Source: a virus. Taken from it: a stretch of DNA of 43,504 bases. Below, in pieces: positions 10,401-42,395 of the stretch. The notes below the pieces were generated by a model. The model saw only the letters and a list, made by a program, of their open reading frames with translations, had not been told where the DNA came from and did not search any database. The position numbers were made by a program, and so were the translations under genes. The stretch is from the IMG/VR virus record IMGVR_UViG_3300049048_000153, positions 1 to 43,504 of that record; one strand, given 5' to 3'. Position 1 is the stretch's first letter. The number at the start of each line of letters is the position of its first letter.

Positions 10401-10766
10401 TTCCCCGGGCGTTGCGTCTTCTTTAGAAAGAGAATCAATCAACAGATCACAGGCAACACCACAGTTTTCGTTGGTGTCTTCGATTTCCGCCGGCATCTGA
10501 TCCCCAAAGAAGACGCGGATCTTAAACCTCCGGACGCGGTTGTTTACGCAGACGGCTTCGGTCAGATAGGTGCCGGATGCCGGCAGGGTAGGATATTCCG
10601 CCAACTGATCAGCTGTCGGATCCTGGCCAGCGGGGATGCCGATGAATTCCCGCTCGAGCGTTCCCCCGTCGTAATAGTAGTACACCGAATACAGCTTCCA
10701 CTTTAGATCGAAGGGAGCATCAGCGGAAACGTTGCGGCGATATTTCAGGATCAGGAGCCTGTTCAT
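7482..10766 (-). CDS. Large tail protein (baseplate hub/tip region)
   Basis: A 1094-aa protein directly after the tape measure gene (ATGA overlap, 4 bases), which is the position of distal-tail and tail-associated proteins in siphophages. The N-terminus (MNRLLILKYRRNVSADAPFD) and the central VYGERYRSSYVDRRGRNTVI region followed by a beta-rich hub-like part resemble large tail proteins common in Bacteroidota phages. No lysozyme or peptidase motif was found. The C-terminal part contains WEDGQLQYYE, a short string also found at the end of the head-closure protein at 16467-16856. It likely forms the tail tip and holds the fibre. Confidence 0.7.
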   Translation of the reverse strand: MNRLLILKYRRNVSADAPFDLKWKLYSVYYYYDGGTLEREFIGIPAGQDPTADQLAEYPTLPASGTYLTEAVCVNNRVRRFKIRVFFGDQMPAEIEDTNENCGVACDLLIDSLSKEDATPGEADGTIAVVASTSNPVIEYRLRSVTTSFIVADWQLSPVFSGLTFGLYQVYARDSKGCFQDKLIYVAEAAPVYGERYRSSYVDRRGRNTVISIFQRGYEGAVIERLSLKGALSIEYDGNVRNKYQAVFGSSATINLYAESRLDFVDLYSSDDRRNRVEVYKDDTVFWKGWLIADYYEDPYVRASSYGITLRAVDGLGDLQQSFYQTVEKFPFEGLETQMTIVRRCLEKTGLSLPMRTGINVYESRVSTGDEDDPLVQTYVDNRAYHLHDDDDPLSHFEVLERNLMPYGARIFQSQGNWWILNVNEMLHDVRIRNYTEEGVFDSATVYSPVRAIHPPTYTGSLPLYWFHAQQHREVLPGCKLYTLLQDYGLRDNFCPDGEFYNEDFADSTHLKKWTWDARIRQAGTPNPTGYDGKLDYIPPRAFSGEVIKRKVAEKDPYGLIIEGTYMQVDSFGRVLLFRVKFDIGPLDLFFKVWYNIQTQKVETQTVQPAQLVPAESEDDYVPHTDDVGDIAEYRTCEGGFVNWFKRTSTLPFAVKELAPGPTACPVTYGQPAFVRSQHIAIEQLAGQGLKVSFTFRINATERRYGANAKSEIAKFFQGRIELRIGNYAYDGQEERWTLFTNETEAKQIYFSAGKINEEETFELVIAPFPVSGDLYAEIGNLLYDGTKGYFENSSVSLYIRDFKLQLIKYGDPYPDSFLLSSLIDRRYTYVPDQEVIYHGDLPPGERNMPLAYAGGMYLNLVEPAQLTFSRTMPGTSAGYTNDYTVLRGSGTGAILGRFKLNSEVYLVRSGNTVDDREGPYLVKGFVSATNDVILKRVFPIGEVILPVVGYVFLAEELEGKMVPTVSWKRVGPTALENEPEQLLLRIALQNRALAHSQPSIKLGGKLKGDLGFEHAITDPHMADKVFVPAFFSYNDNEATVSGEWVEMGTGQAGDIITNPPPGTLAGNRTWEDGQLQYYENLVAKSTEENGLTA

Positions 10767-13060
10767 CCGCTGGTTCGCATTTGAGTATAGTTATCCTGAT
10801 CCAGCACCAAGCGCAGGTCACGGCCCCTGGCCACGAATTCACCCACCAACTTGATGGCCTTTTGCGCCATACCACCGAACACGCCCGGGTTGAATTTTGC
10901 CGGAACAACTGCTTCGCCCTTGTGGAGGAACGCCAGTTGATTACTGGGCACGTAGTTGGTGCCAGTTTCGTACTGAGGAATGCGCCCGCCCCGTTGACCA
11001 CCTCTGCCTGTTTTACCAGCTCCCATGTCGGAAGCGAAAGTGCCTGCTGCAGCAGAAGCTGCGCCCGCTGCTGCCATTAAAAGTGTACCAGCTGCCAGGG
11101 CTGCCCAGGGATTGGTCAACATGGCTTGGGCAGCAATACCAGCAGTTCCGGCCGCAATCATTGCTTTACCAAATGAAGAGAGGAAGCTAGATATCTGACC
11201 TAAAAGCACAGAGAATATATTCTCCATGCCTCCTACACCAGCTGCCATCTGTCCAAAAGCAAATGCCGCTGAAGCAATCATATCCGTCATAGCAGACTGG
11301 ATCAGCGAGTTTACTTCTACCACCGTTCCGCCGGCTTCCTTGTATTGTTGGGCAAATTCTTCAGCGGTCATTCCCTCGGGCGTGAGTGCTCCGTCTACGC
11401 CACTACCCTGTACTTTAATTTCTTTCTGGTTACTGATGCGTTCCAGCATTTTTACTGAAGCCCCACCAGTGCCTAAGCTTTCCGCCCCGGTTTGCTGACG
11501 GGCCTTGATGGAGTTGAGCTCTTTTTCCTGCTTTTGGTAGCCCATCAGCATGCGAAGGTTGGCATCGTTTACCTCCTCCATGGCGTCACGCTCCTTTTCC
11601 AGGGCATCAATGCGACTTTTCGCATTGTTGAGGGCCGCATCCGTAGCAGTCGGGTCGGCAAAAGTGGAATACAACTCATCCAGCTGGATATACACCCGCT
11701 CCAGTTCGTTGGATTCGAGCAGCGCCTTGATCTGGAAGTTCACTTTCTCCAGTTGTCCTGCCAGCGAATCCACCAGCCCCGCCGTAGGAGCCTTCTCCAT
11801 CTGGTCCTTGAGGTCTTTGGCCCTTTTTTGCAGTGACTCCAGCAGGCCCAGCGCAGGCGGATTGGTGTTACCATCACCGGCCATTACTTTTGCCTGAATC
11901 TGATCTACTTGGTCGAGGGCATTCTTATAAGCCCAGGCTTTGGCCGTGGCCAGCTCAATTTTCTGGGCAATGCGCTGATCTGCTTCGGTACCAAGTCCCA
12001 TGCGCCGCAGTGGGTTAGAAGTTTGCATTTCTTCCAACCGCTGCCGTTCCATATCATATTTCTGGTAAAGTTGGTCCAGTCGTTCCCGTTCACGGTTTGC
12101 CTGACCAGGCACCGACCCAGCCGCGCCCATCACCATTGGGTTTCGTTTTTGGGCCGCATCCCCCTCCGCCTTGGCCTTACGAAGCCGTGCTTCCACTTTT
12201 TGCACCAGGTCGTCGGCGAAGTCAGCTCCTAACCGACGTCCTTTGTCGTCGAAGGTCTCAAACATCTCCCTGACGTTGGCCAGCAGGTTCTGTAGTCCGG
12301 AAATGGCCAGGCTGAATGCAGGTGCGGAGTTCTTGCCGATGGTAGTCATCAGGCCTTCCCAGGCATCACCCAGGTTGGAAAGCTGGCCCTCCAGGGTTTC
12401 GGCAATCTTGGCCGTAGCGCCCTGTACCCCGTTCAGATCACCCAGGCCCAGGATGTAACTACGGATAGAGGCTTCCGTGTTTTGGACTTCAGTCGTAACG
12501 CCCTTGAAGGTAAACTTTACCTGGTCACCAGACTTGCTGGCCCGGATACCAAATTCTTTCAACCGCTCAAACTCACCCACCTGGGCATCCAGGATGGCTT
12601 CGGTAAGTTGGGTAAATTGCTTGCCGGTAGAGTTGGCCAAGTCGGCCAGTTTCATCAGCTCGGCAGAAGTAGGCTTAAAACCCTGGTTGGCCAGACGGAC
12701 GTAGTTTTCCGTCAGTTCCGTAACTGAGTAGTTGGTTTTGGCAGCCAGGATTTGGATCTGTCCCATTCCGCGGGCAGCTGCTGAATCAGATCCCAGGGTG
12801 TTGCCTAAAACAGCTTCGAATTTCTGGGTCTGCCCGGTGAGGCGCAGCATTTCCCCGGTGAAATTCTTGATCTGGTCAATGGCGAAGATGGCACCCAGCG
12901 TTTCGCCTACGCCCTTAAATGCATCTTCGGACTGCTTGGCCTTGCGATTGACCTCCTTGCTGAACTTATCCAGCTTGGTATTGGCATCGCGCAGACCCTT
13001 ATCCAGCTTACTGAGTTCTGCGCCAATGGATACGGATAACTCCTCTATGGTTAGTGCCAT
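10763..13060 (-). CDS. Tail tape measure protein
   Basis: A 765-aa protein with a long N-terminal coiled coil (about 1-60), Ala-rich helical central region, and a hydrophobic Ala/Gly-rich stretch near the C-terminus (about 645-705) followed by FLHKGEAVVPAKFNPGVFGG, a tail typical of tape measure proteins. It fixes tail length and is ejected with the DNA. The ATG lies only 4 bases from a promoter -7 box (see 13065-13100), so its own message may be nearly leaderless. Confidence 0.9.
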   Translation of the reverse strand: MALTIEELSVSIGAELSKLDKGLRDANTKLDKFSKEVNRKAKQSEDAFKGVGETLGAIFAIDQIKNFTGEMLRLTGQTQKFEAVLGNTLGSDSAAARGMGQIQILAAKTNYSVTELTENYVRLANQGFKPTSAELMKLADLANSTGKQFTQLTEAILDAQVGEFERLKEFGIRASKSGDQVKFTFKGVTTEVQNTEASIRSYILGLGDLNGVQGATAKIAETLEGQLSNLGDAWEGLMTTIGKNSAPAFSLAISGLQNLLANVREMFETFDDKGRRLGADFADDLVQKVEARLRKAKAEGDAAQKRNPMVMGAAGSVPGQANRERERLDQLYQKYDMERQRLEEMQTSNPLRRMGLGTEADQRIAQKIELATAKAWAYKNALDQVDQIQAKVMAGDGNTNPPALGLLESLQKRAKDLKDQMEKAPTAGLVDSLAGQLEKVNFQIKALLESNELERVYIQLDELYSTFADPTATDAALNNAKSRIDALEKERDAMEEVNDANLRMLMGYQKQEKELNSIKARQQTGAESLGTGGASVKMLERISNQKEIKVQGSGVDGALTPEGMTAEEFAQQYKEAGGTVVEVNSLIQSAMTDMIASAAFAFGQMAAGVGGMENIFSVLLGQISSFLSSFGKAMIAAGTAGIAAQAMLTNPWAALAAGTLLMAAAGAASAAAGTFASDMGAGKTGRGGQRGGRIPQYETGTNYVPSNQLAFLHKGEAVVPAKFNPGVFGGMAQKAIKLVGEFVARGRDLRLVLDQDNYTQMRTSG

Positions 13061-13064
13061 AGAG

Positions 13065-13100
13065 CAAACGTCCAGCTTTAATTGCCAAAGCGTCCCCGTT
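13065..13100 (-). promoter_or_regulatory. Late promoter P-tape
   Basis: Minus strand: AACGGGGAC (13092-13100), 19 bases, then GACGTTTG (13065-13072), 4 bases before the tape measure ATG. The same two boxes at exactly the same distance occur at 24646-24681 and 19843-19878. The right box fits the Bacteroidota -7 element TAnnTTTG with one mismatch; the left box is not the normal -33 TTTG and is probably read by a phage activator. Confidence 0.6.
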
Positions 13101-13200
13101 ACGGTTGTCTGATAGGGAAATACTGAAAAATCAGTATAGGCACGTCTGTGCGAATGTGTATATTAATAGTCTTGAAAAACCTTAAAACTAAACCTTTGGA
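13092..13200. repeat. Moron cassette upstream region, copy 1
   Basis: This stretch resembles 19870-19975: both hold GTCCCCGTT, an identical hairpin about 20 bases further, then GTATATT, a GTCT and an AAACTAAA-type element at similar spacing. The two regions sit upstream of different plus-strand genes. It is a diverged duplicate or a template shared by moron cassettes of related phages. Confidence 0.55.
13120..13137 (-). terminator. Hairpin ATACTGA-AAAA-TCAGTAT
   Basis: A perfect 7-bp inverted repeat with a 4-base loop, identical to 19899-19916. Reading leftwards it is followed by TTT, so it could stop minus-strand transcription just before the late promoter of the tape measure gene. It could equally be an operator for the divergent moron. 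Confidence 0.45.
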
Positions 13201-13204
13201 TTAC

Positions 13205-13303
13205 ATGGGCTTAAAGTCACAAACAAGGTTAGTCTATATACAATTGGTTTGGTTAGAATTTACTAGATGCAACAGCTGTTTGAAAAACAAGCTAAATCAA
13301 TAA
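13205..13303 (+). CDS. Possible 32-aa leader or remnant ORF
   Basis: A short frame MGLKSQTRLVYIQLVWLEF... with CNSC, ending with TAA 12 bases before the 303-aa moron. Its ATG lies 67 bases after the hairpin, about the same distance as the ATG of the other moron (71 bases, gene at 19988). It may be a leader peptide or the stump of a former cassette gene. Coding status is not shown. Confidence 0.25.
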   Translation: MGLKSQTRLVYIQLVWLEFTRCNSCLKNKLNQ

Positions 13304-13315
13304 TATGCCCATTTT

Positions 13316-14227
13316 ATGAAAGGACTATCAAGTTCCATAAAGTCACTTTGGTCCTCAGTATCTGACCTATTGCTTGGTCTTTTAATTGTTGGAGCTGGTA
13401 TCGTATTAGTATCATATTTGGCTGATAGTTTGTATACACCCTTAAGGTTATTTTATACAGGTGATTATCACAAGGTAGTTGTTGTAAAAAAATATCAAGA
13501 AGTTCATTATACTAGGAATGGCCCGCTTACTGGCCACTGGATGCTTAAAATCAACCAATTGGATACAATATATGATGTACAAGGTAATATAATAGACGAG
13601 CCAGAAGTTGAAAGGGGAGATTCTATATATGTGTTCTGCAACAGTAAATTGAAAACTGGTGCATATACGCCAGAAAAAAGCATCACGCTATTTCGGTTGA
13701 TCATGCTTTACCCACTATTTCCATTTGGGAACATCATTCTGTCTTTTATTTTCTTTTTCCCTTTAATGGTTGCAAGTGTTCAGTATAATAAATATGCCAC
13801 AGTAAAATGGTTCAATTCGATAGTTGAGCAAAAAACCTCTTATGAAAATAAATATTTGTATTACATATTTTTCCTTAATGAACTGATACCAATATGCATT
13901 TCGATTATACTTATATTCATCATATGTTTCCTTTTAATAAAAGGAGTGCTCCTGATGGAAAGCTACAATCAACTAGCAAGAGGCGCTGCAGTATTTGTAA
14001 GCTTATTGACTTTTTGCTTTATGCCAGGTGCCATAATTACTGCAGCAAGTCATATCAAGAGTGGCACTAACGAAGTAATTAAAACTATAAAAGGCTTGGT
14101 GAAATTGATAGGCGGAGTGTTTTTGATAAAGCAAATTGGAGAATTTGCACTTACCAAAGATCTGACAAAGTATGATAATTTATGGAGTATAATTATAGAT
14201 GCTATAAAAGCCCTTTTTGAATTCTAG
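13316..14227 (+). CDS. Moron: polytopic membrane protein (303 aa)
   Basis: A plus-strand, A+T-rich gene embedded in the minus-strand structural operon, between tape measure and tail chaperone. It has an N-terminal TM (about 14-36), an extracytoplasmic beta-rich part (about 45-120, with YHKVVVVKKYQEVHYTRNG and ERGDSIYVF; a distant likeness to DUF3592-type modules), then three or more TMs (about 128-155, 183-212, 218-242). Opposite orientation, base composition and own promoter region mark it as a moron expressed in the lysogen. Many such phage membrane proteins act in superinfection exclusion, but nothing here proves that role. Confidence 0.75.
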   Translation: MKGLSSSIKSLWSSVSDLLLGLLIVGAGIVLVSYLADSLYTPLRLFYTGDYHKVVVVKKYQEVHYTRNGPLTGHWMLKINQLDTIYDVQGNIIDEPEVERGDSIYVFCNSKLKTGAYTPEKSITLFRLIMLYPLFPFGNIILSFIFFFPLMVASVQYNKYATVKWFNSIVEQKTSYENKYLYYIFFLNELIPICISIILIFIICFLLIKGVLLMESYNQLARGAAVFVSLLTFCFMPGAIITAASHIKSGTNEVIKTIKGLVKLIGGVFLIKQIGEFALTKDLTKYDNLWSIIIDAIKALFEF

Positions 14228-14262
14228 CCTGTTGCAGTAATTGTACTCCTGCAAAATTCACT

Positions 14263-14352
14263 TTTGGGCTCATAGATCAAAGTACATCGACAATTCGCCA
14301 AGTTACTAGCTTTGGCTCCGCGGTTGTAATCCCCCAAGTCAGCAGTTCTTCT
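14263..14352 (-). pseudogene. Fragment of MuF-like gene 3' end
   Basis: Thirty codons read ...GDYNRGAKASNLANCRCTLI and then YEPK, nearly identical to the C-terminus of the intact MuF-like protein at 20273-21067 (GDGNHGAKASNLVNCRCTLI, YEPKG). There is no start and the frame does not fit the neighbouring chaperone gene, which ends only 5 bases away. In the intact locus a moron also lies directly next to the MuF stop, so this fragment marks the right edge of a transferred moron cassette. Confidence 0.8.
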
Positions 14353-14356
14353 ATCG

Positions 14357-14704
14357 TCATTTCTTAGGCAGAAACTGTTTGAAAAAGTTATCTTCTTCCT
14401 TGGTAAGCATCACCCGGTTGGCCGGCAGGATCGTTTCCTCTTCCGGATCGTCGTGCAGGGTAAGCCGGATCTCTTCCGGTTCGGGTGGGTCAGTCATATA
14501 GCCGGCTACCAAGTAGGAAGCCAGCGTGCGTGTGTGCAGCCATACCCGGTCCAACCTGAGCCAATAGCCCCAGTAAGCGTTCCAGAACTCACCCCAGCTC
14601 ATCGACCAGAAGTGTTCGTGAGTGAGGCCCATCTCCCCGGTCGCAAAACAGTAGTAGTCCCAAAGGGTCTTGGGCTCTTCCTCCTTCTGCCCGGGGCTTA
14701 GACG
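14357..14704 (-). CDS. Tail assembly chaperone, frameshifted T part
   Basis: The frame is open from the CCCAAAC slippery site of the upstream gene to TAA at 14357-14359 and codes for about 115 residues. The first ATG is at 14632, but coding-like sequence (SPGQKEEEPKTLWDYYCFAT) exists before it, so the natural product is most likely a -1 fusion with the 154-aa protein (about 265 aa in all). It is rich in Trp/Tyr (FWNAYWGYWLRLDRVW), as common for GT-type chaperones, which bind the tape measure protein before tube assembly. It lies upstream of the tape measure, interrupted by the moron cassette. Confidence 0.75.
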   Translation of the reverse strand, partial: RLSPGQKEEEPKTLWDYYCFATGEMGLTHEHFWSMSWGEFWNAYWGYWLRLDRVWLHTRTLASYLVAGYMTDPPEPEEIRLTLHDDPEEETILPANRVMLTKEEDNFFKQFLPKK

Positions 14705-17626: not shown

Positions 17627-17655
17627 AGAAATGGAATGGATAATGACCGTTTGAA

Positions 17656-17683
17656 AGAATCCCTTCAGTTGTGAAGGGATTCT
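17656..17683 (-). terminator. Hairpin after major capsid gene
   Basis: Perfect 11-bp stem AGAATCCCTTC (17656-17666) and GAAGGGATTCT (17673-17683) with 6-base loop, 27 bases after the capsid stop; only a short T run (TTC) follows. It likely acts as a leaky terminator or a 3' stabilising stem, giving more capsid message. Confidence 0.6.
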
Positions 17684-17710
17684 TATATTAAAGGTCAGAT
17701 AATGGAATAA

Positions 17711-19075: not shown

Positions 19076-19816
19076 TTAAATTTTAGCTGCGTTTTTAAAT
19101 ACATTAAATATTTCCCTGATCTCGCTGCTGTCCGGCTCAGCTGACTTGTTACCAGTGGGCTCTCCGCCCGGCTGGTCGTCTTTCAGAAGTGGTGCAATCA
19201 ACCCATCATAGGCATCCTGGATCTGCTTGAGTTCGATCTCCAGCATTTCGAAGGTTTCATCAGTGAAGGTGCCTTTGCGCAAGGCTTTGAAAAGCTTACT
19301 CATCCGATCGTTGAGGGCATTGAGTTGATCGGTTTTGGAAAGGGATTTTATACCCACGAGCGGGGTATTGGCATTCGCTCCCCAAGTTACGGAGGAGTAC
19401 TCCCAGAGCATTACTTCCTTGATCAGGTAAGCGCTTTGGGTCATGTCTGGCTCCCCTTTGACGGTCTGGAATCCCACCGAGTGCTCGAATAGGTCCATTT
19501 CATAGAGTTTCAGAGCATCATTTCCATCGGTGGTATCGGCCAGCAGAGAAGAGACCAACAGGCCTTTGATGTCTTCTTCCATTTTAGCGGGCTTACCGAT
19601 CATCCGGTAAGGGCTGTGCTGGAGCAGGTGTTTGATCCGGCAGTTAGAAGCACCGGGACCGCGCTCAGCGATGGTTTTCTTGTAGGCACCAGGCAGGATG
19701 ATATCTCCGTCGGAATCCTTGCTGCCGAATTCGCTGACGTAGATCTGTACGGACCGGCCTTTGATGTCCAGATCCTTTACTTTGAGGTTACATTGCTTGG
19801 TCTGATAGTGTGCCAC
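19076..19816 (-). CDS. Prohead protease (U35, HK97 gp4 family)
   Basis: A 246-aa protein with a GTG start (GTG GCA CAC). It shows the family pattern: SVQIYVSEFGSKDSDGDII near residues 22-40, His in RIKHLLQHSPYRMIGKP as the likely catalytic His, and Ser in LFEHSVGFQTV as the likely nucleophile. The C-terminal third is helical and may serve as scaffold. It cuts scaffold domains from capsid subunits. A late promoter lies 27 bases upstream. Confidence 0.9.
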   Translation of the reverse strand: MAHYQTKQCNLKVKDLDIKGRSVQIYVSEFGSKDSDGDIILPGAYKKTIAERGPGASNCRIKHLLQHSPYRMIGKPAKMEEDIKGLLVSSLLADTTDGNDALKLYEMDLFEHSVGFQTVKGEPDMTQSAYLIKEVMLWEYSSVTWGANANTPLVGIKSLSKTDQLNALNDRMSKLFKALRKGTFTDETFEMLEIELKQIQDAYDGLIAPLLKDDQPGGEPTGNKSAEPDSSEIREIFNVFKNAAKI

Positions 19817-19842: not shown

Positions 19843-19878
19843 CAATGGTAAGGAGTAGAAAAAGGAAGGGTCCCCGTT
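19843..19878 (-). promoter_or_regulatory. Late promoter P-protease
   Basis: Minus strand: AACGGGGAC (19870-19878), 19 bases, TACCATTG (19843-19850), the latter one base off TAnnTTTG. Geometry is identical to the promoters at 13065-13100 and 24646-24681. It would drive protease, capsid and following genes. Confidence 0.6.
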
Positions 19879-19898
19879 CCGATTTTGGGGCATAAAAA

Positions 19899-19916
19899 AT
19901 ACTGAAAAATCAGTAT
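19899..19916 (-). terminator. Hairpin ATACTGA-AAAA-TCAGTAT
   Basis: Same 18 bases as at 13120-13137. Leftwards it is followed by TTTTTTATG, so here it looks like a good terminator for minus-strand transcription that crosses the moron from the MuF gene, placed just ahead of the late promoter. Confidence 0.55.
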
Positions 19917-19987
19917 AGCATGAGATAAAAGCCATTCCGTATATTGACGGTCTCAAATATTCACAAACTAAAAACTATCAAAACGAA

Positions 19988-20272
19988 ATGGCAATCATTA
20001 ATAAGACAGATTTAGTTTATACAGATTATAGTTGGACAGCTATCAAGGGCGATGACCCTAAGATATCTGGAGAGCCTGATAGTACACTCTTTAACAAACA
20101 CGAGGGATATGAAATGCTGTATCTCCTGAATAAAATGGTTAAAAACGGGATCGCACCAAGAGCGACAGCTCAAAAAGCGGAAAGATTGATTCGACAACAT
20201 TTGCCAGGCTCCATAAGAAGCCAGACGAACGTATACAAATGGGTGGTAGATAATTGGGATAGCTATAAGTAA
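19988..20272 (+). CDS. Moron: 94-aa protein of unknown function
   Basis: A plus-strand gene inside the minus-strand head operon, between protease and MuF-like gene, with its own A+T-rich upstream region. The stop codon directly abuts the stop of the convergent MuF gene with no spacer. The protein is soluble and helical in its second half (YEMLYLLNKMVKNGIAPRAT...). No domain is recognised. Orientation and cassette structure support expression from the prophage. Confidence 0.7.
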   Translation: MAIINKTDLVYTDYSWTAIKGDDPKISGEPDSTLFNKHEGYEMLYLLNKMVKNGIAPRATAQKAERLIRQHLPGSIRSQTNVYKWVVDNWDSYK

Positions 20273-21067
20273 TTACCCCTTCGGCTCGTAAATCAAAGTA
20301 CAGCGACAGTTCACCAGGTTGCTGGCCTTGGCCCCGTGGTTGCCATCGCCTGGGTGCATTAACCTTTGGCCATTGATTTCAAAAAAAGTATCGATATCCA
20401 CCTTTTGCCCGTTCGCCTTCCTATGTGGGTCGCGCGTACGGGCATCTTTGGTGCTCAGCCAAATCTTATCCAGTAGTAAACCAGTAGCTTTGGCGCCAAC
20501 GTAGCTGCCGTAATTCCCAGCCGACACCAGCTCCGTACGCGCAACGACTATGGCCCGGCTCTTGTTCAGCGCCTGGGTATATCCTGCCAGCTCCTTGGCC
20601 GTGCGCTGAGTGCTCCACCCCTCCCCGATCGCATCTTCCACAAATTGCCGGACCTTGCTGCGGGTTGTTTCGGTAATCCGCCTGATCCGATCTACGCCCT
20701 GGGTCTGCACGTACTGCCTGGCCCGGGCCACCCACTTGGAGTTGAGTAGATCGTCCCAGCCTGGCAGGCCTCTTTTCAGGGTCAGCTCCAGATCATCGCT
20801 TTTATGGTTAGTCAGATCACCATAGGCCATCGAAGCGAAGGGAGGCAGCACTTTCATATAGATGGCCAGCATGGCCTGCTCGATCGGAGCGATACTGATC
20901 AGGTCCACCACATCAACGGACAAAGTATCAGCCTTCCGGATGGCATTGATTACTGGCCGCACCTGAAGCGCCAGCGCTTTGCGCATGGCTGCCCGACAAA
21001 AGGGATACAGTGCCATTCGGCGGGTCTCTATGATGCGGAGGTAACGACGTTGGCCTACTTCGTTCAT
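20273..21067 (-). CDS. MuF-like head morphogenesis protein
   Basis: A 264-aa protein of the SPP1 gp7 / Mu F type: helical N-terminal part and the C-terminal motif set ARTELVSAG, TRDPHRKANGQKVDIDTFF, MHPGDGNHGAKASNLVNCRC. It is a minor head protein that binds the portal and helps assembly or DNA ejection. It overlaps the next upstream gene by 4 bases. A broken copy of its 3' end exists at 14263-14352. Confidence 0.9.
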   Translation of the reverse strand: MNEVGQRRYLRIIETRRMALYPFCRAAMRKALALQVRPVINAIRKADTLSVDVVDLISIAPIEQAMLAIYMKVLPPFASMAYGDLTNHKSDDLELTLKRGLPGWDDLLNSKWVARARQYVQTQGVDRIRRITETTRSKVRQFVEDAIGEGWSTQRTAKELAGYTQALNKSRAIVVARTELVSAGNYGSYVGAKATGLLLDKIWLSTKDARTRDPHRKANGQKVDIDTFFEINGQRLMHPGDGNHGAKASNLVNCRCTLIYEPKG

Positions 21068-25145: not shown

Positions 25146-25495
25146 AAGTACTTTTCAATTTCATACTGGAACTGTGGCTGGTTGTCGACGACTGCGAAGT
25201 GAAAGCCAACTTTGATGAGCTGGAAGGATACTTCCGCCTGCTCATCAGAGAGTTTTTCCCCGGGCTTTTTGAATTCGATATAGAATCCGTGATACTTTCC
25301 TCTGGGAAGAGCAAGGAAGGTATCTGGAACGCCGGCAGTTAATCCCATCGCTTTGGCGATCGCTCCACGCTTTTTTCCGATGGAATTGTTGTTGTTCATA
25401 TGGTAGAGGTCTGCGTACTGACGATAGGTATTCTTGAACCAGGTCACGCAGTCTGCCTGGATCCGGGCTTCGGAAAGTTTCTTCTCTGCGATCAT
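25133..25495 (-). CDS. VRR-NUC domain nuclease
   Basis: A 120-aa stand-alone VRR-NUC protein. The active-site pattern is visible: Glu/Gln near the start (EARIQADCVTWF), G-V-P-D at residues 55-58, and FYIEFKKPGEKLSDEQ with E-x-K (about 73-76) followed by Q. Such phage proteins act on branched DNA in replication or recombination. It overlaps the preceding small gene by 4 bases. Confidence 0.88.
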   Translation of the reverse strand: MIAEKKLSEARIQADCVTWFKNTYRQYADLYHMNNNNSIGKKRGAIAKAMGLTAGVPDTFLALPRGKYHGFYIEFKKPGEKLSDEQAEVSFQLIKVGFHFAVVDNQPQFQYEIEKYLCLS

Positions 25496-25701
25496 AACAG
25501 CGAAAGTTGATTTTTGGAGATGTCTTCCCAGGGCATTTCGTATTTGTCCACTGCTTTCTGTAGTTCATCGGCTTTCTCCTTTTTTGATCGGATATGAAAA
25601 AAGGAATGCATTTCCGGCCGGGTGGCCATCGCCTGATACTCTTCTTGCGTTTTGCGCATTTCCCTCACGAGTTTGACGTAATCTTTGAATCTTTCTTCCA
25701 T
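25492..25701 (-). CDS. Small helical protein (69 aa)
   Basis: A charged helical protein (MEERFKDYVKLVREMRKTQE..., KKEKADELQKAVDKYEMPW). It is the first gene after the repeat region at 25738-25839 and overlaps the VRR-NUC gene by 4 bases (ATGA). Function unknown. Confidence 0.6.
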   Translation of the reverse strand: MEERFKDYVKLVREMRKTQEEYQAMATRPEMHSFFHIRSKKEKADELQKAVDKYEMPWEDISKNQLSLL

Positions 25702-25737: not shown

Positions 25738-25839
25738 ACCATCAAACCATCAAGCTACCATCACATTACCATCACTGATGGTTACCATCAACCATCAAAC
25801 CATCACCCCTTATATATATAAGGGGGTGATGTTGATGGT
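25738..25839. repeat. ACCATCA iteron-like array with inverted repeat
   Basis: Seven exact ACCATCA copies on the plus strand start at 25738, 25746, 25757, 25768, 25784, 25791 and 25799; two exact inverted copies (TGATGGT) start at 25776 and 25833, and two partial ones follow inside the gene end. In the middle, 25801-25831 forms a long inverted repeat: CATCACCCC and GGGGGTGATG arms around TTATATATATAA. Clustered iterons plus an A+T-rich melting segment beside a RepA-like ATPase gene suggest a replication origin. A ParB-binding site is the main alternative, since a ParB-like gene is in the same operon. Confidence 0.6.
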
Positions 25840-26951
25840 TAATTGATGGCTGGATTGATGGCATATTTTCCTAGTAAATCGACGGTGAGTATACCAAGCG
25901 ATTTTGCTGTGGCAATCCGTCTTTCTGAAGTAGCTGGTGCCTTGCCAGTCATCTCGGAATACACGCCTTTCAATTCGGTGTAATTCATCGGCTGGCAGTT
26001 TTTGATAATGCGGGTGAACTCCTCAGTGAGCTCCTTACGCTGTTGCTCCGCCTTGGCATCTTCCCGGGCTTTTTTGTCCCGCTCCTTGGCATCGACCTTA
26101 TGCTGCTGAGTGATCACGCCAGTGGTCACGTGGAAGCCCTTCTGATCATCGTACTCGAAGTTGATGGCCGGGATCTTGATCGGGTCCGAATTGCGGGTAT
26201 AGGTAGCCGTCATCTGGCTGGTGGACGTGTCGGGAATCTTGACCACCTGCAGCACCGATTCGCTCTTGCGCTCCAGTTGGCTGCCCAGGTGGCCACGTGC
26301 TTTGTTGGTACCCGGGTTATAGTGGAGCACGGTGATCAGCGGGCAGGCATACTTAATACATAGCTTCTCGGCCCAGTCCACCAGCTCGTAGGCTTCGGTT
26401 TCATCATTGGGGGATTTGCCCAAGTCAGCCAGGCCATCCAGCACCCAGAAGTACACTCCGCCAAACAGTTCCGCATACACTTCCATGGCATCCTCCACCA
26501 GCGCCCGGCGGTTGCTGAAGTCAATACTGCGGAGGTTGAAGCTTTTGAAAAAGTCGGTGTCCCGGGATCGGTTCACCCGTTTGTAAGCGTTGGAAAAAGA
26601 GCGGAAATGGTTGTAATCACTCTGCTCGGTATCGAAGTGCAGGATGGCCTTCTTGTCGCGGTTGGGCGCAATCTGCAGGCCCAGCAGATCCACGCCGGCA
26701 TCGCCCTGGATGGCCAGGCCACCGGCAATGGAAGCGGTGACCAAAGCCGATTTTCCGGACTTTGCCTGGCCGGCCAGCGTGGTGATGTTTCCCGATGTGG
26801 AGATGGTTTCCCCTCCGATGGTTATAACCGGCACCGGCCTAGCCACTGGTTTATCCAGTGAGTAGGCCAGCAGCTCCAGTTGGTCAAAATTGAAACGTTC
26901 CATCTGCCCTTTAGTGAGCAGATCGGTTTGGGTTTGATATGGATAATTCAT
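25839..26951 (-). CDS. RepA-like AAA ATPase / RecA-fold helicase
   Basis: A 370-aa protein with Walker A GQAKSGKS (residues 61-68), a FDTEQS motif (106-111) and Walker B FWVLDGLADL (168-177), followed by TVLHYNPGTNKARGHLGSQ. This is the hexameric RepA/DnaB-like RecA-fold group found in plasmids and phages, probably the replicative helicase. The C-terminal 90 residues are charged and end in a small winged-helix-like part (YTELKGVYSEMTGKAPATSERR). Its 3' end runs into the iteron-like repeats. Confidence 0.85.
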   Translation of the reverse strand: MNYPYQTQTDLLTKGQMERFNFDQLELLAYSLDKPVARPVPVITIGGETISTSGNITTLAGQAKSGKSALVTASIAGGLAIQGDAGVDLLGLQIAPNRDKKAILHFDTEQSDYNHFRSFSNAYKRVNRSRDTDFFKSFNLRSIDFSNRRALVEDAMEVYAELFGGVYFWVLDGLADLGKSPNDETEAYELVDWAEKLCIKYACPLITVLHYNPGTNKARGHLGSQLERKSESVLQVVKIPDTSTSQMTATYTRNSDPIKIPAINFEYDDQKGFHVTTGVITQQHKVDAKERDKKAREDAKAEQQRKELTEEFTRIIKNCQPMNYTELKGVYSEMTGKAPATSERRIATAKSLGILTVDLLGKYAINPAIN

Positions 26952-36476: not shown

Positions 36477-36493
36477 GTATGTTTTAAACATAC
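36477..36493. promoter_or_regulatory. Repressor operator palindrome
   Basis: GTATGTTTTAAACATAC: two perfect 8-base half-sites (GTATGTTT, AAACATAC) around one central base. It lies between the divergent early gene and the repressor. A second, smaller inverted repeat AACTT-gctg-AAGTT is at 36446-36459 and may be another site. Confidence 0.7.
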
Positions 36494-37889: not shown

Positions 37890-38156
37890 ATGACCCACTA
37901 CGAATTCAATCAGCTCAACCTAAATGACAAGGTGATGTTCGTCTGGGACAACTGTCAGTTCCTGTTGAACCGGCCAGCCGATGAAACTCATACGGCTGCG
38001 CTGTACTATCGCAAAGCCAGGCTGTACCGGGAGGAGTACTTTATTGAAATGTGGTACAACGTCAACGGAGCCAGCATTGATTCGATCATCACCTTCCGGG
38101 CAACAAGGCTATTGGAAGGATACTTGGAAAAGATTGAAATGAGGGAACTGGAATGA
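37890..38156 (+). CDS. Small protein, paralogue A (88 aa)
   Basis: ATG directly abuts the previous stop. The core VMFVWDNCQFLLNRPA ... FIEMWYNVNGASIDSI ... RLLEGYLEKIEM can be aligned over its full length with the 82-aa protein at 38478-38726, so the two are paralogues. No known domain. It overlaps the ArsR-type gene by 4 bases. Confidence 0.65.
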   Translation: MTHYEFNQLNLNDKVMFVWDNCQFLLNRPADETHTAALYYRKARLYREEYFIEMWYNVNGASIDSIITFRATRLLEGYLEKIEMRELE

Positions 38157-38828: not shown

Positions 38829-40052
38829 ATGAGTAATCTTTTGACCTATAACAAACTTACTATGAAATTACTAGTGATGGCAACTGATGCTGTAATTAAC
38901 CAAAAAACATCAAAAATATTCGATGGCCTAGAAGCAAGTCTTGATAAATTTCTTAGTTTAGAAAAGGGGAATAAAATTGTAGTTTTCTCTGGTCACGCAC
39001 ATAAGCTACAAAACATTCCCTCAAAGTACCACCGTCAGACCATCAATCTTAAGATAAGGAGAAATAAAGCCTTAATCGAACAATTAATAAATGAGCATGG
39101 CTTTCAGTTTTCCAATATAATTATTTTAGGTTCTAAAGATGATGACTTACACTTAGCAGCAAATTCGCAAGTCTTATTGCTAAATGCAGGTTATTCAAAA
39201 TCTAATAATCCAAGCTCAAAAGTATTTGAGTATGGTATTTCCCTTAACACCACAGATCTATTATACACATTTTTTTACTTTTTTTCAGGAATTAGTAATC
39301 CTTGGTACTTTAATGCGAAAATTACGGATACAACCACCATCTATGCATTGACAAATGCAAATACGATGAGTCCTCACCAAGGAGACGATGAGAAAAGTCT
39401 TAATAATAAATTTAAAGAGTGTTTGAAGGATGGTAAGTCGGAGTACCGTGATCTTTTTATAATATATTTTCTGATGAGTATATATACTCCAGCAGTAGTA
39501 GATATTTTTAGAGAAGTTGATTATTGGGGGATTTATCCATCATCAGGTACCGATACTAACCAAGATTTAGATTACTTTAAAGAAACAGTAAGAAAATCTC
39601 TGAATAGTGGACCTAAAACAGAACAGCCTATACTAATAAGAAAAGAGGCAACCAGCAAACGACACGAACTGTCACAAAATCAAAGGATTACTAATGCCTG
39701 TGATTCTCAACTCGATACTATTGTCATTAACCCATACTATGAAGGTAAGATTGAAGGAAAAGTAATATGTATCATCGACGACTTCACTACATATGGGACA
39801 TCCTGTGAGACAGTAAGGCTTTTATTAGAAAAAGCTGGCGCAAGCAAAGTGATTTTTATTGCGCTAGGCAAATTTGGACACACTTATTATAAGTTCGACT
39901 ACATTATACACGGGGACGTATTCAGAAACTATACCTTTAAGAAACTGTCACACAAATCGCTGTCTTTCCCGTATTCTAATTATAACAATAACGCTAATAA
40001 AGATTTACTTCTTTCACTAGGGAAATACATTAAAAATCTTTCAAATGCCTGA
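38829..40052 (+). CDS. ShosT-like phosphoribosyltransferase (toxin/effector)
   Basis: A 407-aa, A+T-rich gene. Residues 12-120 look like a degenerate HAD fold (MKLLVMATD, VVFSG at 51-55, GSKDDDLHLAANS at 101-113), with the first HAD nucleophile not evident. The C-terminal third is a ComF-like phosphoribosyltransferase with the PRPP loop VICIIDDFTTYGTS (312-325). It overlaps the DprA-like gene by 8 bases. A PRTase followed by a DprA-family protein is the composition of ShosTA, known as a toxin-antitoxin pair and as an anti-phage system in prophages. Start at 38829 is used; ATG at 38862 (MKLLVMATD) is equally plausible. Confidence 0.7.
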   Translation: MSNLLTYNKLTMKLLVMATDAVINQKTSKIFDGLEASLDKFLSLEKGNKIVVFSGHAHKLQNIPSKYHRQTINLKIRRNKALIEQLINEHGFQFSNIIILGSKDDDLHLAANSQVLLLNAGYSKSNNPSSKVFEYGISLNTTDLLYTFFYFFSGISNPWYFNAKITDTTTIYALTNANTMSPHQGDDEKSLNNKFKECLKDGKSEYRDLFIIYFLMSIYTPAVVDIFREVDYWGIYPSSGTDTNQDLDYFKETVRKSLNSGPKTEQPILIRKEATSKRHELSQNQRITNACDSQLDTIVINPYYEGKIEGKVICIIDDFTTYGTSCETVRLLLEKAGASKVIFIALGKFGHTYYKFDYIIHGDVFRNYTFKKLSHKSLSFPYSNYNNNANKDLLLSLGKYIKNLSNA

Positions 40053-41028
40053 GATTAAAGACTTATTATTTCTAATATATCTAACAAATTATAATGTTAA
40101 GGAAATATATTATGCAATTGACACAAATCAACTAACTGATGTTAAGAAGTATGTTAATTCATTTTTGAAAAAGAAAAATGAAAATGCAAAGTTCACTACT
40201 TCAACAATAGATATTACCATCAAGAAAGCTGTAAAGGAGGCAGAATATTGCTTTGATTCTCTTAGGTATTTTGATATTAAAGCAATACCATATTTTTCTC
40301 ATAGCTATCCTGAAAACCTGCGTAAAATAAGCAATCCCCCTCCTATTTTATTCGTTAAGGGCATTTTTTCAAATAACATTTTTGCAGCCGTTGTTGGCTC
40401 AAGAGAAACTTCAAAGTATGCCCAAGAAAATACAAAAAATGTGGTTGAAGTTCTTAAATCAAAAAATTATGGTATTGTTTCCGGCTTAGCTAGTGGTATA
40501 GATACTATGGCGCATAAGTCAGCCTTAGAAATGGATTGTTATACAATAGCAGTTTTACCAAATTCTTTAGATTCCATTTACCCTAAAGAAAACATGAGGT
40601 TAGCATCCGAAATTATTGATCACGGAGGAGCCCTTGTTACTGAAATACCTTTAGGAATAAACTTAGGTAAGCAAAGCTTTATTGAAAGAAATAGAATTCA
40701 AACTGGCTTGTCAAATATTGTAATTCCTGTTGAGATGGGAGTTAAATCAGGGACAATGCATACAGTCAATTTTTGCAAACAACAGAAAAAGAAACTTTTC
40801 TTATTTCAACCGAAAGTTGAATATAGGAATTTACCGAACTACCAAGGTATTAATTATTTAATTGATGAACAGGTTAAGAAGAAGAATGATTTAGTCGTTG
40901 TTGTGAAATCTATAAATGATTTTGAAATAAAATTAGAACATAACGATATAGTTTCGATAAAAGGACCTAATTATAAATCGATAACCGACAAGGATAATGA
41001 TGGATCACAATTGAACATATTTCAATAA
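40045..41028 (+). CDS. ShosA-like DprA-family protein (antitoxin)
   Basis: A 327-aa protein of the DprA/Smf SLOG superfamily: VVGSRETS (116-123), SGLASGIDTMAHKSAL (146-161), FIERNRIQTGLS (212-223) and KSGTMHT are the nucleotide/ssDNA-binding motifs. It lacks extra C-terminal winged-helix content of housekeeping DprA, and A+T content equals its partner. It overlaps the PRTase gene by 8 bases, so production is coupled. In ShosTA this partner neutralises the toxin. Host DprA in transformation is the alternative, but the pairing argues against it. Confidence 0.78.
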   Translation: MPEIKDLLFLIYLTNYNVKEIYYAIDTNQLTDVKKYVNSFLKKKNENAKFTTSTIDITIKKAVKEAEYCFDSLRYFDIKAIPYFSHSYPENLRKISNPPPILFVKGIFSNNIFAAVVGSRETSKYAQENTKNVVEVLKSKNYGIVSGLASGIDTMAHKSALEMDCYTIAVLPNSLDSIYPKENMRLASEIIDHGGALVTEIPLGINLGKQSFIERNRIQTGLSNIVIPVEMGVKSGTMHTVNFCKQQKKKLFLFQPKVEYRNLPNYQGINYLIDEQVKKKNDLVVVVKSINDFEIKLEHNDIVSIKGPNYKSITDKDNDGSQLNIFQ

Positions 41029-41048: not shown

Positions 41049-42395
41049 ATGGAAGCCATCCGAACCCTCCGCCTGGATAAGAAGAACAGCAAAGGATACT
41101 GCCCAATCCGGATCACCTGCTACTTTGAAGGCAAGCGCGTGTTTCTTTCCCCAGGCATATCCGTGGAGGAGAAGAACTGGGATGATGAAAAGAAGAAAGT
41201 CAAGTCCAAAGATCCGGCTCCCCTGCACAAAAACCAGATTCTGGACCGCTGGGAGCAGGCTGCCAATGACGTACGCTACCTGGCCACTGCTGCCAATCAG
41301 CAGCTAAGCGTAGAAGAATTCAAAAAGCGGGTGGAGGTAAAGTACGCCGAATTGTCGGCCGGCCCCTCTCCTGCTCCACCAGTGCCTGATCCGAAAGGCC
41401 CCGACTTCTTTTCCCTCTATGATCAGTTCTTAACTGCCAAAGCCAAAGAGATTTCTCCTGTAACAAAAAAGCGTATTGCTCCTTCCACGATTGTTAGCTT
41501 GGATGGCACCCGTCAGCGCCTACTCCATTTTGCCACAGTCAAGCACCGGGAGCTCACACTGGAAGGTATGGATCTGAAGTTCTACAATGCTTTCCGTGAT
41601 TATGTGTTGAATGAGGCGCCCATGCCCGATGGCAGCAAAGGGCAGAGTGTAAACAATTTCGGAAAGCACATCCGCCACCTGAAAACCTTCCTCACCTGGT
41701 GTGAGGATCAGGAGCTGGCTGTAAATCTTAAATACCGCAAATTCGATGCTCCAGAATCGTACGTAGGCGTAGACAGCCTATTTCCCCACGAAGTCAGAAA
41801 GCTATACGACTTCGACTTCAATACGGATGAAGTGAAGAAATACATCCTGGATACATCAAGAAGAAAATTCGGTAAGGCGCTCAACCGGCTTCAGCTGGAG
41901 CAGAGGTTGCAGCTGCTGGGTGAATGCCGGGACGCCTTTCTGTTTGGCTGCTCCACTGGCCTATCCATTTCAGATGCCTTTGCTGTGAAAGAAGCTACGC
42001 ACGTGCGCAATGGCTTAATCATCATTCCTCGCACCAAGACTTCCAACGAATGCTATATCCCACTAGTAGATGATGATCTGTTCCGGGCGCAGTACTTTAT
42101 TGATAAGTACCGAGAGAAGCAGAAGACCTGCATCCCCGTCATCCGTGACATCAATAAGCACCTGAAGGATATTGCCCACCTGGTAGGAATCGGAATCAGC
42201 CGACTCAACCTCTCTTATAAGATTGCCAGAAAGACCTACGTGACCAATAAAGTGTACCAGGGAGTACCTACTCGACTGATTATGCAGTCAACCGGCCACA
42301 AGACGGAAGCGGCATTCAATCGGTATCTGGGTGTGGATGTGGAGGAGCTGAAGCGACAATTCCAACTTATAAGTAACAAACAGAAAGTAGCATAA
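41049..42395 (+). CDS. Tyrosine-recombinase integrase (Bacteroidota type)
   Basis: A 448-aa enzyme with an arm-binding domain (AIRTLRLDKKNSKGYCPIRI, residues 3-22), SAM-like core-binding domain (about 115-225) and a catalytic domain (about 260-440). The Arg I box reads CSTGLSISDA, with Ser at the canonical Arg position, as in IntDOT-like enzymes of this phylum; box II has KT-x-NECYIP; the HxxR box reads KIARKT; STGHK and Tyr in NRYLGV close the active site. It integrates and excises the prophage. The 20-base gap from the DprA-like gene indicates co-transcription is possible. Confidence 0.92.
   Translation: MEAIRTLRLDKKNSKGYCPIRITCYFEGKRVFLSPGISVEEKNWDDEKKKVKSKDPAPLHKNQILDRWEQAANDVRYLATAANQQLSVEEFKKRVEVKYAELSAGPSPAPPVPDPKGPDFFSLYDQFLTAKAKEISPVTKKRIAPSTIVSLDGTRQRLLHFATVKHRELTLEGMDLKFYNAFRDYVLNEAPMPDGSKGQSVNNFGKHIRHLKTFLTWCEDQELAVNLKYRKFDAPESYVGVDSLFPHEVRKLYDFDFNTDEVKKYILDTSRRKFGKALNRLQLEQRLQLLGECRDAFLFGCSTGLSISDAFAVKEATHVRNGLIIIPRTKTSNECYIPLVDDDLFRAQYFIDKYREKQKTCIPVIRDINKHLKDIAHLVGIGISRLNLSYKIARKTYVTNKVYQGVPTRLIMQSTGHKTEAAFNRYLGVDVEELKRQFQLISNKQKVA

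Follow-up and report, generated by a model that had tools for sequence, protein, structure and literature searches.

A 303-aa accessory (moron) gene in this phage probably reached its present position within the slot content of a related phage, which was joined into the very start of the tape-measure protein (TMP) gene, where the 303-aa gene would still act as a moron. Read from the sequence, this history is suggested by the homology of both flanks to another site of the same phage, by a silent-site signature in a displaced piece of the MuF gene, by a residual ("ghost") TMP start and by an accessory slot that recurs in related phages. We regard the 303-aa gene as a real case of a mislocated moron, of a known kind but with an unusually legible history. 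The window, by which we mean the whole 43.5-kb stretch analysed, is a virus record with the gene content of a temperate siphophage-like prophage; its host was presumably a member of the Bacteroidota, judging from the integrase domains and from the relatives of TerL, TMP and ShosTA/DprA in that phylum. Coordinates are collected in Table 1.

Table 1. Position and strand of the features discussed in the text.
Feature	Position	Strand	Remarks
TerL, portal, MuF, S78 protease, HK97-type capsid, tape measure		-	head and tail genes
TMP gene	10763-13060	-	begins M-A-L-TIEELSV, not M-TIEELSV
Cassette left flank	13088-13139		divergent promoter/leader region, homologous to 19866-19918
20-nt dyad, copy 1	13120-13139		ATACTGA-AAAA-TCAGTATAG; identical to copy 2
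GTATATTAATAGTCT	13158-13172	+	candidate -7/-10 box of the 303-aa gene, common to 19939-19953; putative promoter role
303-aa accessory (moron) gene	13316-14227	+	no known family; opposite strand to all neighbouring late genes
MuF C-terminal fragment	14263-14352	-	G-D-Y-N-R-G-A-K-A-S-N-L-A-N-C-R-C-T-L-I-Y-E-P-K; reliable homology 14263-14334
TMP ghost start	14343-14360	-	ATGACGATAGAAGAACTG = MTIEEL; 4-nt ATGA overlap with the stop of the 91-aa gene
91-aa gene upstream of TMP	14357-14632	-	homologous genes in L101 and L179; L102 has a gene of similar size at this place
Prohead protease (Peptidase_S78) gene	19076-19816	-	other border of the native slot
20-nt dyad, copy 2	19899-19918		in the native slot
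94-aa moron gene	19988-20272	+	phrog_33929; lies in the native slot between MuF and protease
Intact MuF (minor head protein) gene	20273-21067	-	the fragment corresponds to its 3' end (20279-20350)
Tyrosine integrase (Bacteroidota-type domains) and S24 repressor genes	right end	+

Within the minus-strand gene array (603-31849) only two gaps exceed 140 bp, measuring 1296 and 456 bp, and each houses a single plus-strand gene, encoding the 303-aa and the 94-aa protein, respectively. As is typical of morons, the 303-aa gene is inserted between genes that are adjacent in relatives, and its base composition is unlike that of its surroundings (34% GC, compared with about 50% in the late genes). The encoded protein has four predicted transmembrane segments (residues 18-36, 137-155, 190-208 and 223-241) and returned no match in phages, plasmids, PDB sequences, Pfam, PHROGs, NCBIfam or PADLOC; AlphaFold models made without an alignment were unusable (mean pLDDT 50.5 and 52.8). 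The search for known RNA families found none, and a stem following the gene (TTGCAG/CTGCAA, around 14232-14254) was no more stable than shuffled sequences (-5.3 kcal/mol, z = -0.66).

Compared with itself by blastn, the window yielded just two direct repeats that are dispersed and low in E-value, and both frame the 303-aa gene. The left one is 80% identical to its counterpart over 54 columns (E = 2.5e-4), and the right one, 14264-14334 against 20280-20350, is 79% identical (E = 9e-10). The initial annotation had proposed that both flanks belong to another site of this prophage, and the alignments are indeed far better than chance, with local scores of 50 (left) and 67 (right) against maxima of 32 (500 shuffles) and 31, respectively. 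On the left the homology stops at about 13087, with no further similarity toward the TMP start. The repeats lie 6 kb apart and flank the protease, capsid and head-tail genes, such that recombination between them would delete essential genes; their identity of about 80% may keep such a deletion rare.

The right flank is a piece of MuF. Searching with the MuF protein (tblastn) matched residues 234-263 to 14352-14263 with E = 3.5e-9, so that homology is established; the description of this fragment as almost identical to the intact gene did not hold, since identity is 73% over the 30 aa, rising to 20 of 23 residues in the core. The fragment has lost its own stop codon, its reading frame running on to a TAG, and the upstream part of the gene is absent. 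Over 23 codons, fragment and intact MuF differ by 15 nucleotide changes that cause only 3 amino acid changes. The neutral expectation for as many changes is 10.1, and none of 20,000 simulations gave as few as 3. These mostly silent differences imply that the fragment stems from a separate functional MuF allele rather than from a recent self-duplication; during their divergence each copy was under selection as a MuF protein, and the relocation is recent relative to that divergence. Together, the flank homology and the silent-site signature support the earlier proposal that the cassette came from the MuF-adjacent site of another phage.

The same numbers weigh on the idea of an internal duplication, in which this phage's own slot supplied the MuF end and the promoter and the gene was exchanged for another afterwards. 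Among known loci, both flanks are indeed closest to this phage's slot, and the MuF fragment scores 108 against its own MuF and 68 against the next best, that of L179. Yet 3 amino acid changes where 10 are expected is unlike a decaying duplicate, unless the duplicate was itself selected, and we consider such an internal origin very unlikely. A scan of the relatives for the NCRC motif found no other misplaced MuF end outside MuF, save for pieces at contig ends.

The cassette lies inside the 5' end of the TMP gene, a point absent from the initial annotation. Reading along the minus strand, the 91-aa gene is followed by the ghost MTIEEL and by the MuF piece; TMP proper begins 1.3 kb further on as M-A-L-TIEELSVSIGAEL. 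Once the flanks are joined they read MTIEELSVSIGAEL, to be compared with the start of the L099 protein, MTIEELSVAIGANL. Joining thus restores a standard TMP start, which indicates that the cassette split it. Of the 234 ATG triplets that the late strand has in the late region, MTIEEL is the sole full match; shuffled sequences gave none in 42,199. Relatives begin TMP at the position of the ghost start. In 48 of 65 of them TMP lies ≤30 nt from its upstream gene (mostly encoding about 90-110 aa), and in 23 the two overlap by 4 nt, L179 with its ATGA overlap among them; the corresponding distance in the window is 1296 bp. As an aside, we considered whether the present TMP start had been taken over from the protease start, and rejected this, the shared TGGCAC being a chance match (P = 0.5).

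One feature fits less well. Between the ghost TIEEL and the real one, 5 of 15 nt are changed, all at silent sites. Had the cassette simply been inserted into a single TMP gene in recent times, these differences would not be expected; this is the main loose end of our reading. It is also a hint that cassette and present TMP may have arrived jointly, presumably from a donor (phage or satellite) that carried slot content beside its TMP, with a single junction inside the recipient TMP start that left MTIEEL behind. Such an allele swap is, tentatively, a possible course of events. The TIEEL divergence resembles that of the MuF fragment (15 of 69 nt), adjacency of protease and TMP exists in an integrated element (L099/L100, described below), and no TMP homolog was detected in L101, L102 or L105 despite their common head genes (and, in L101, the 91-aa gene). 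Against it, L179 shares TMP, the 91-aa gene and the head genes with the window in the usual order, so TMP need not be foreign, and the adjacency MuF end-moron-TMP was found in no record. The divergence of the TIEEL duplication, together with the lack of a recombinase, also sets the cassette apart from transposons.

We return to the preferred reading, insertion of slot content into the TMP start, and to the slot itself. Relatives were gathered by alignment-based scans with TerL, protease and TMP, giving 60 dereplicated loci; single-protein scans with MuF, TerL, the 94-aa or the 303-aa protein returned no relatives. In this sample, which was collected with the phage's own proteins, inserts of more than 250 bp were present at the MuF-protease junction in 24 of 55 cases, compared with 0 of 54 at protease-capsid (p = 5e-9), 1 of 28 at TerL-portal and 10 of 45 at portal-MuF. 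Opposite-strand ORFs were likewise concentrated there (12/55 vs 4/127 at the other junctions; Fisher p = 1.4e-4), and removal of the high-GC loci L101-L103, whose ORFs may be spurious, left p = 3e-4. L179, the nearest relative found (63% identity in TerL), has five opposite-strand ORFs at this junction, one of them UmuD-like; in Flavobacterium phage pippi8-1 the protease is directly preceded by two reverse genes, and in Porphyromonas phage005 the minor capsid gene is followed by a reverse block that includes an integrase. Gene content thus varies among relatives, and the junction carries differing cargo more often than other junctions do, as expected of a hotspot. In related phages, accessory genes recur at the MuF-protease junction, a slot prone to exchange, and these independent phages support the idea of the initial annotation that the slot at MuF is variable.

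The initial annotation had gone further, taking the hairpin and the MuF end as homology arms of a mobile cassette exchanged between phages. Relatives do carry genes between protease and MuF, as just described, and flanks that match the native slot could drive exchange there, and phage recombinases tolerate divergent substrates (PMC3945230); at the native slot, homology-arm exchange may well apply. At the present site, though, the arms match nothing native. None of the relatives examined carries the window's flanking sequence, slot-flank homology being seen within the window only, and the dyad with these flanks occurs in no other record: an exact scan of IMG/VR with an 18-nt dyad gave 5 matches, none with the shared flanks. 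Moreover, the MuF piece has no stop codon, and the unit is devoid of recombinase, integrase and nuclease ORFs. As an account of how the gene came to lie in TMP, we judge this mechanism unlikely.

The left flank contains a 20-nt dyad, ATACTGAAAAATCAGTATAG, with the same letters in both copies, which are the only two in the window; shuffled sequences gave no match. Apart from this dyad, only short inverted repeats were found in the cassette. Weaker similarity of the left flank extends to GTATATTnAnnGTCT, about 20 nt downstream of the dyad. If the TATATT box 20 nt downstream is the -7/-10 element, the dyad would lie outside the moron mRNA, and its position about 20 nt upstream of the shared GTATATT box on the moron strand suggests that it is bound by a protein and does not form an RNA hairpin in the moron transcript. 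A consensus promoter scan upstream of the 303-aa gene detected weak sites only, and GTCCCCGTT, previously put forward as a late promoter, found no independent support. Two other roles for the dyad were considered and rejected. It is not a strong terminator (-6.4 kcal/mol alone, z = -0.8 and -2.0 in minus-strand contexts), nor does it appear to act as operator for the S24 repressor, since a dyad of another sequence, GTATGTTTTAAACATAC, lies in the repressor region; the S24 repressor is accordingly not an obvious binder. That palindrome lies at 36477-36493, just upstream of the repressor gene (36534), and is likely its operator.

Full conservation of the dyad amid surroundings of 80% identity, some 20 nt from the shared TATATT box, could also mean that the left flank is simply a divergent promoter/operator used twice, unrelated to any movement. 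Reuse of this kind would leave both the MuF fragment and the split TMP start unexplained, and the dyad is absent elsewhere, repressor region included. We think it rather unlikely as an explanation of the shared flank.

In the native slot, as had been noted, a different moron abuts the intact MuF: the 94-aa gene, with 0 bp between it and the MuF stop. On small E. coli plasmids, relatives of its product (41% identity) are encoded immediately upstream of genes for HindIII-family endonucleases, and on the C. necator plasmid pHG1 upstream of avs1a (Avs1 defence). These loci of the family are L258, L259 and L263. By this guilt by association, the 94-aa protein may be a defence-linked small regulator. 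Neither it nor the 303-aa protein matched PADLOC or Pfam, and on this basis neither is assigned to a defence family.

For the promoter, the recombination route and the role of the 303-aa protein, we infer the following course. The MuF/prohead-protease junction serves as a moron slot in this family of phages, its genes often read against the late operon, presumably from a promoter on the protease side. The segment 13088-14340 would be the slot content of a related phage, comprising the last ~24 codons of MuF, a gene for a 303-aa membrane protein and a divergent promoter region with the dyad. Illegitimate recombination at ectopic positions probably put this segment into the very start of the TMP gene, the MuF end being a passenger scar and no working part. 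TMP would have survived through a new start 1.3 kb downstream, with MTIEEL left as a ghost. The 303-aa gene most likely has a promoter that drives it antisense to late transcription and without depending on it, and its product would reside in the membrane; our guess is that it protects the lysogen or excludes other phages. The donor is a presumed one, since no other phage was found to carry this cassette or dyad.

In several respects the gene resembles the morons of lambdoid and Mu-like temperate phages (PMC4378225): a single gene of deviant composition, located between two genes that lie next to each other in relatives, running against the late operon and with a plausible promoter of its own. 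It differs from them in that the cassette includes a truncated piece of a structural gene that belongs at another site and splits a structural gene at its 5' end, and in that no clear terminator was seen. In the plasticity regions of Pseudomonas Mu-like phages, too, short accessory ORFs lie at set positions within a conserved core (PMC4378225). In that survey, however, there was no usable flanking signal or recognisable flanking sequence, and the mechanism of acquisition was called mysterious, whereas the present cassette shows its flanks as well as its junctions. In P2-like phages and P4-like satellites (PMC9122126), hotspots also occupy a fixed position among core genes with cargo that differs per relative, and one cargo family here is defence-associated; the present slot, by contrast, lies between MuF and protease inside the head operon of another phage group, and its two genes are known by sequence only. 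Finally, mosaicism through relaxed homologous recombination (PMC3945230) entails exchange between divergent temperate phages that leaves similar sequence at the borders, but the TMP-side junctions, at least, look illegitimate here.

How morons arrive is an open question, and the cassette offers a rare visible scar of accessory-gene acquisition by phages, with both junctions readable to about 10-25 nt and the source site identified. The opposite strand just upstream of the prohead protease is also a site to mine for accessory, possibly anti-phage, genes of Bacteroidota phages. Were it a one-off scar only, it would still be a clean example of an ordinary process. More generally, moron slots might be exchanged as units with borders inside the neighbouring structural genes and be mis-targeted, as here, to the start of a second late gene (TMP); the MuF piece and the ghost start would then mark the acquisition breakpoints, and slot genes would be switched on through the dyad as a common control site. 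This is a speculation that we ourselves consider rather doubtful.

Some further observations concern other elements. At L100 (1-18963), with L261, and L099, a contig carries two neighbouring integrated elements; both have a small terminase (Terminase_2) and a gene resembling a primase, and their tyrosine integrases nearly match. In one of them an S78 protease (63% identical to the window's) is directly followed by a tape-measure gene (39%), and no TerL homolog was found in that two-element record. The L099/L100 element looks like a Bacteroidota phage satellite with its own protease and tail ruler; tape-measure genes have been reported in PLE and cf-PICI satellites (PMC12987554).

In the window itself, a ShosTA pair at 38829-41028, which looks complete (ShosT, PADLOC E = 1.3e-44; ShosA/DprA-like, E = 2.4e-71), adjoins the integrase gene (41049-42395). 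A 26-nt direct repeat (38022-38047 and 42078-42103; 88% identity, E = 0.13) has one copy just before the ShosTA genes and the other near the end of the integrase gene. A near-perfect long inverted repeat (25780-25850; -36 kcal/mol, z = -6.6) lies between the genes at 25492-25701 and 25839-26951, and a strong hairpin in the gap after the capsid gene (17655-17684; -19.9 kcal/mol, z = -6.3) is probably a terminator or attenuator.
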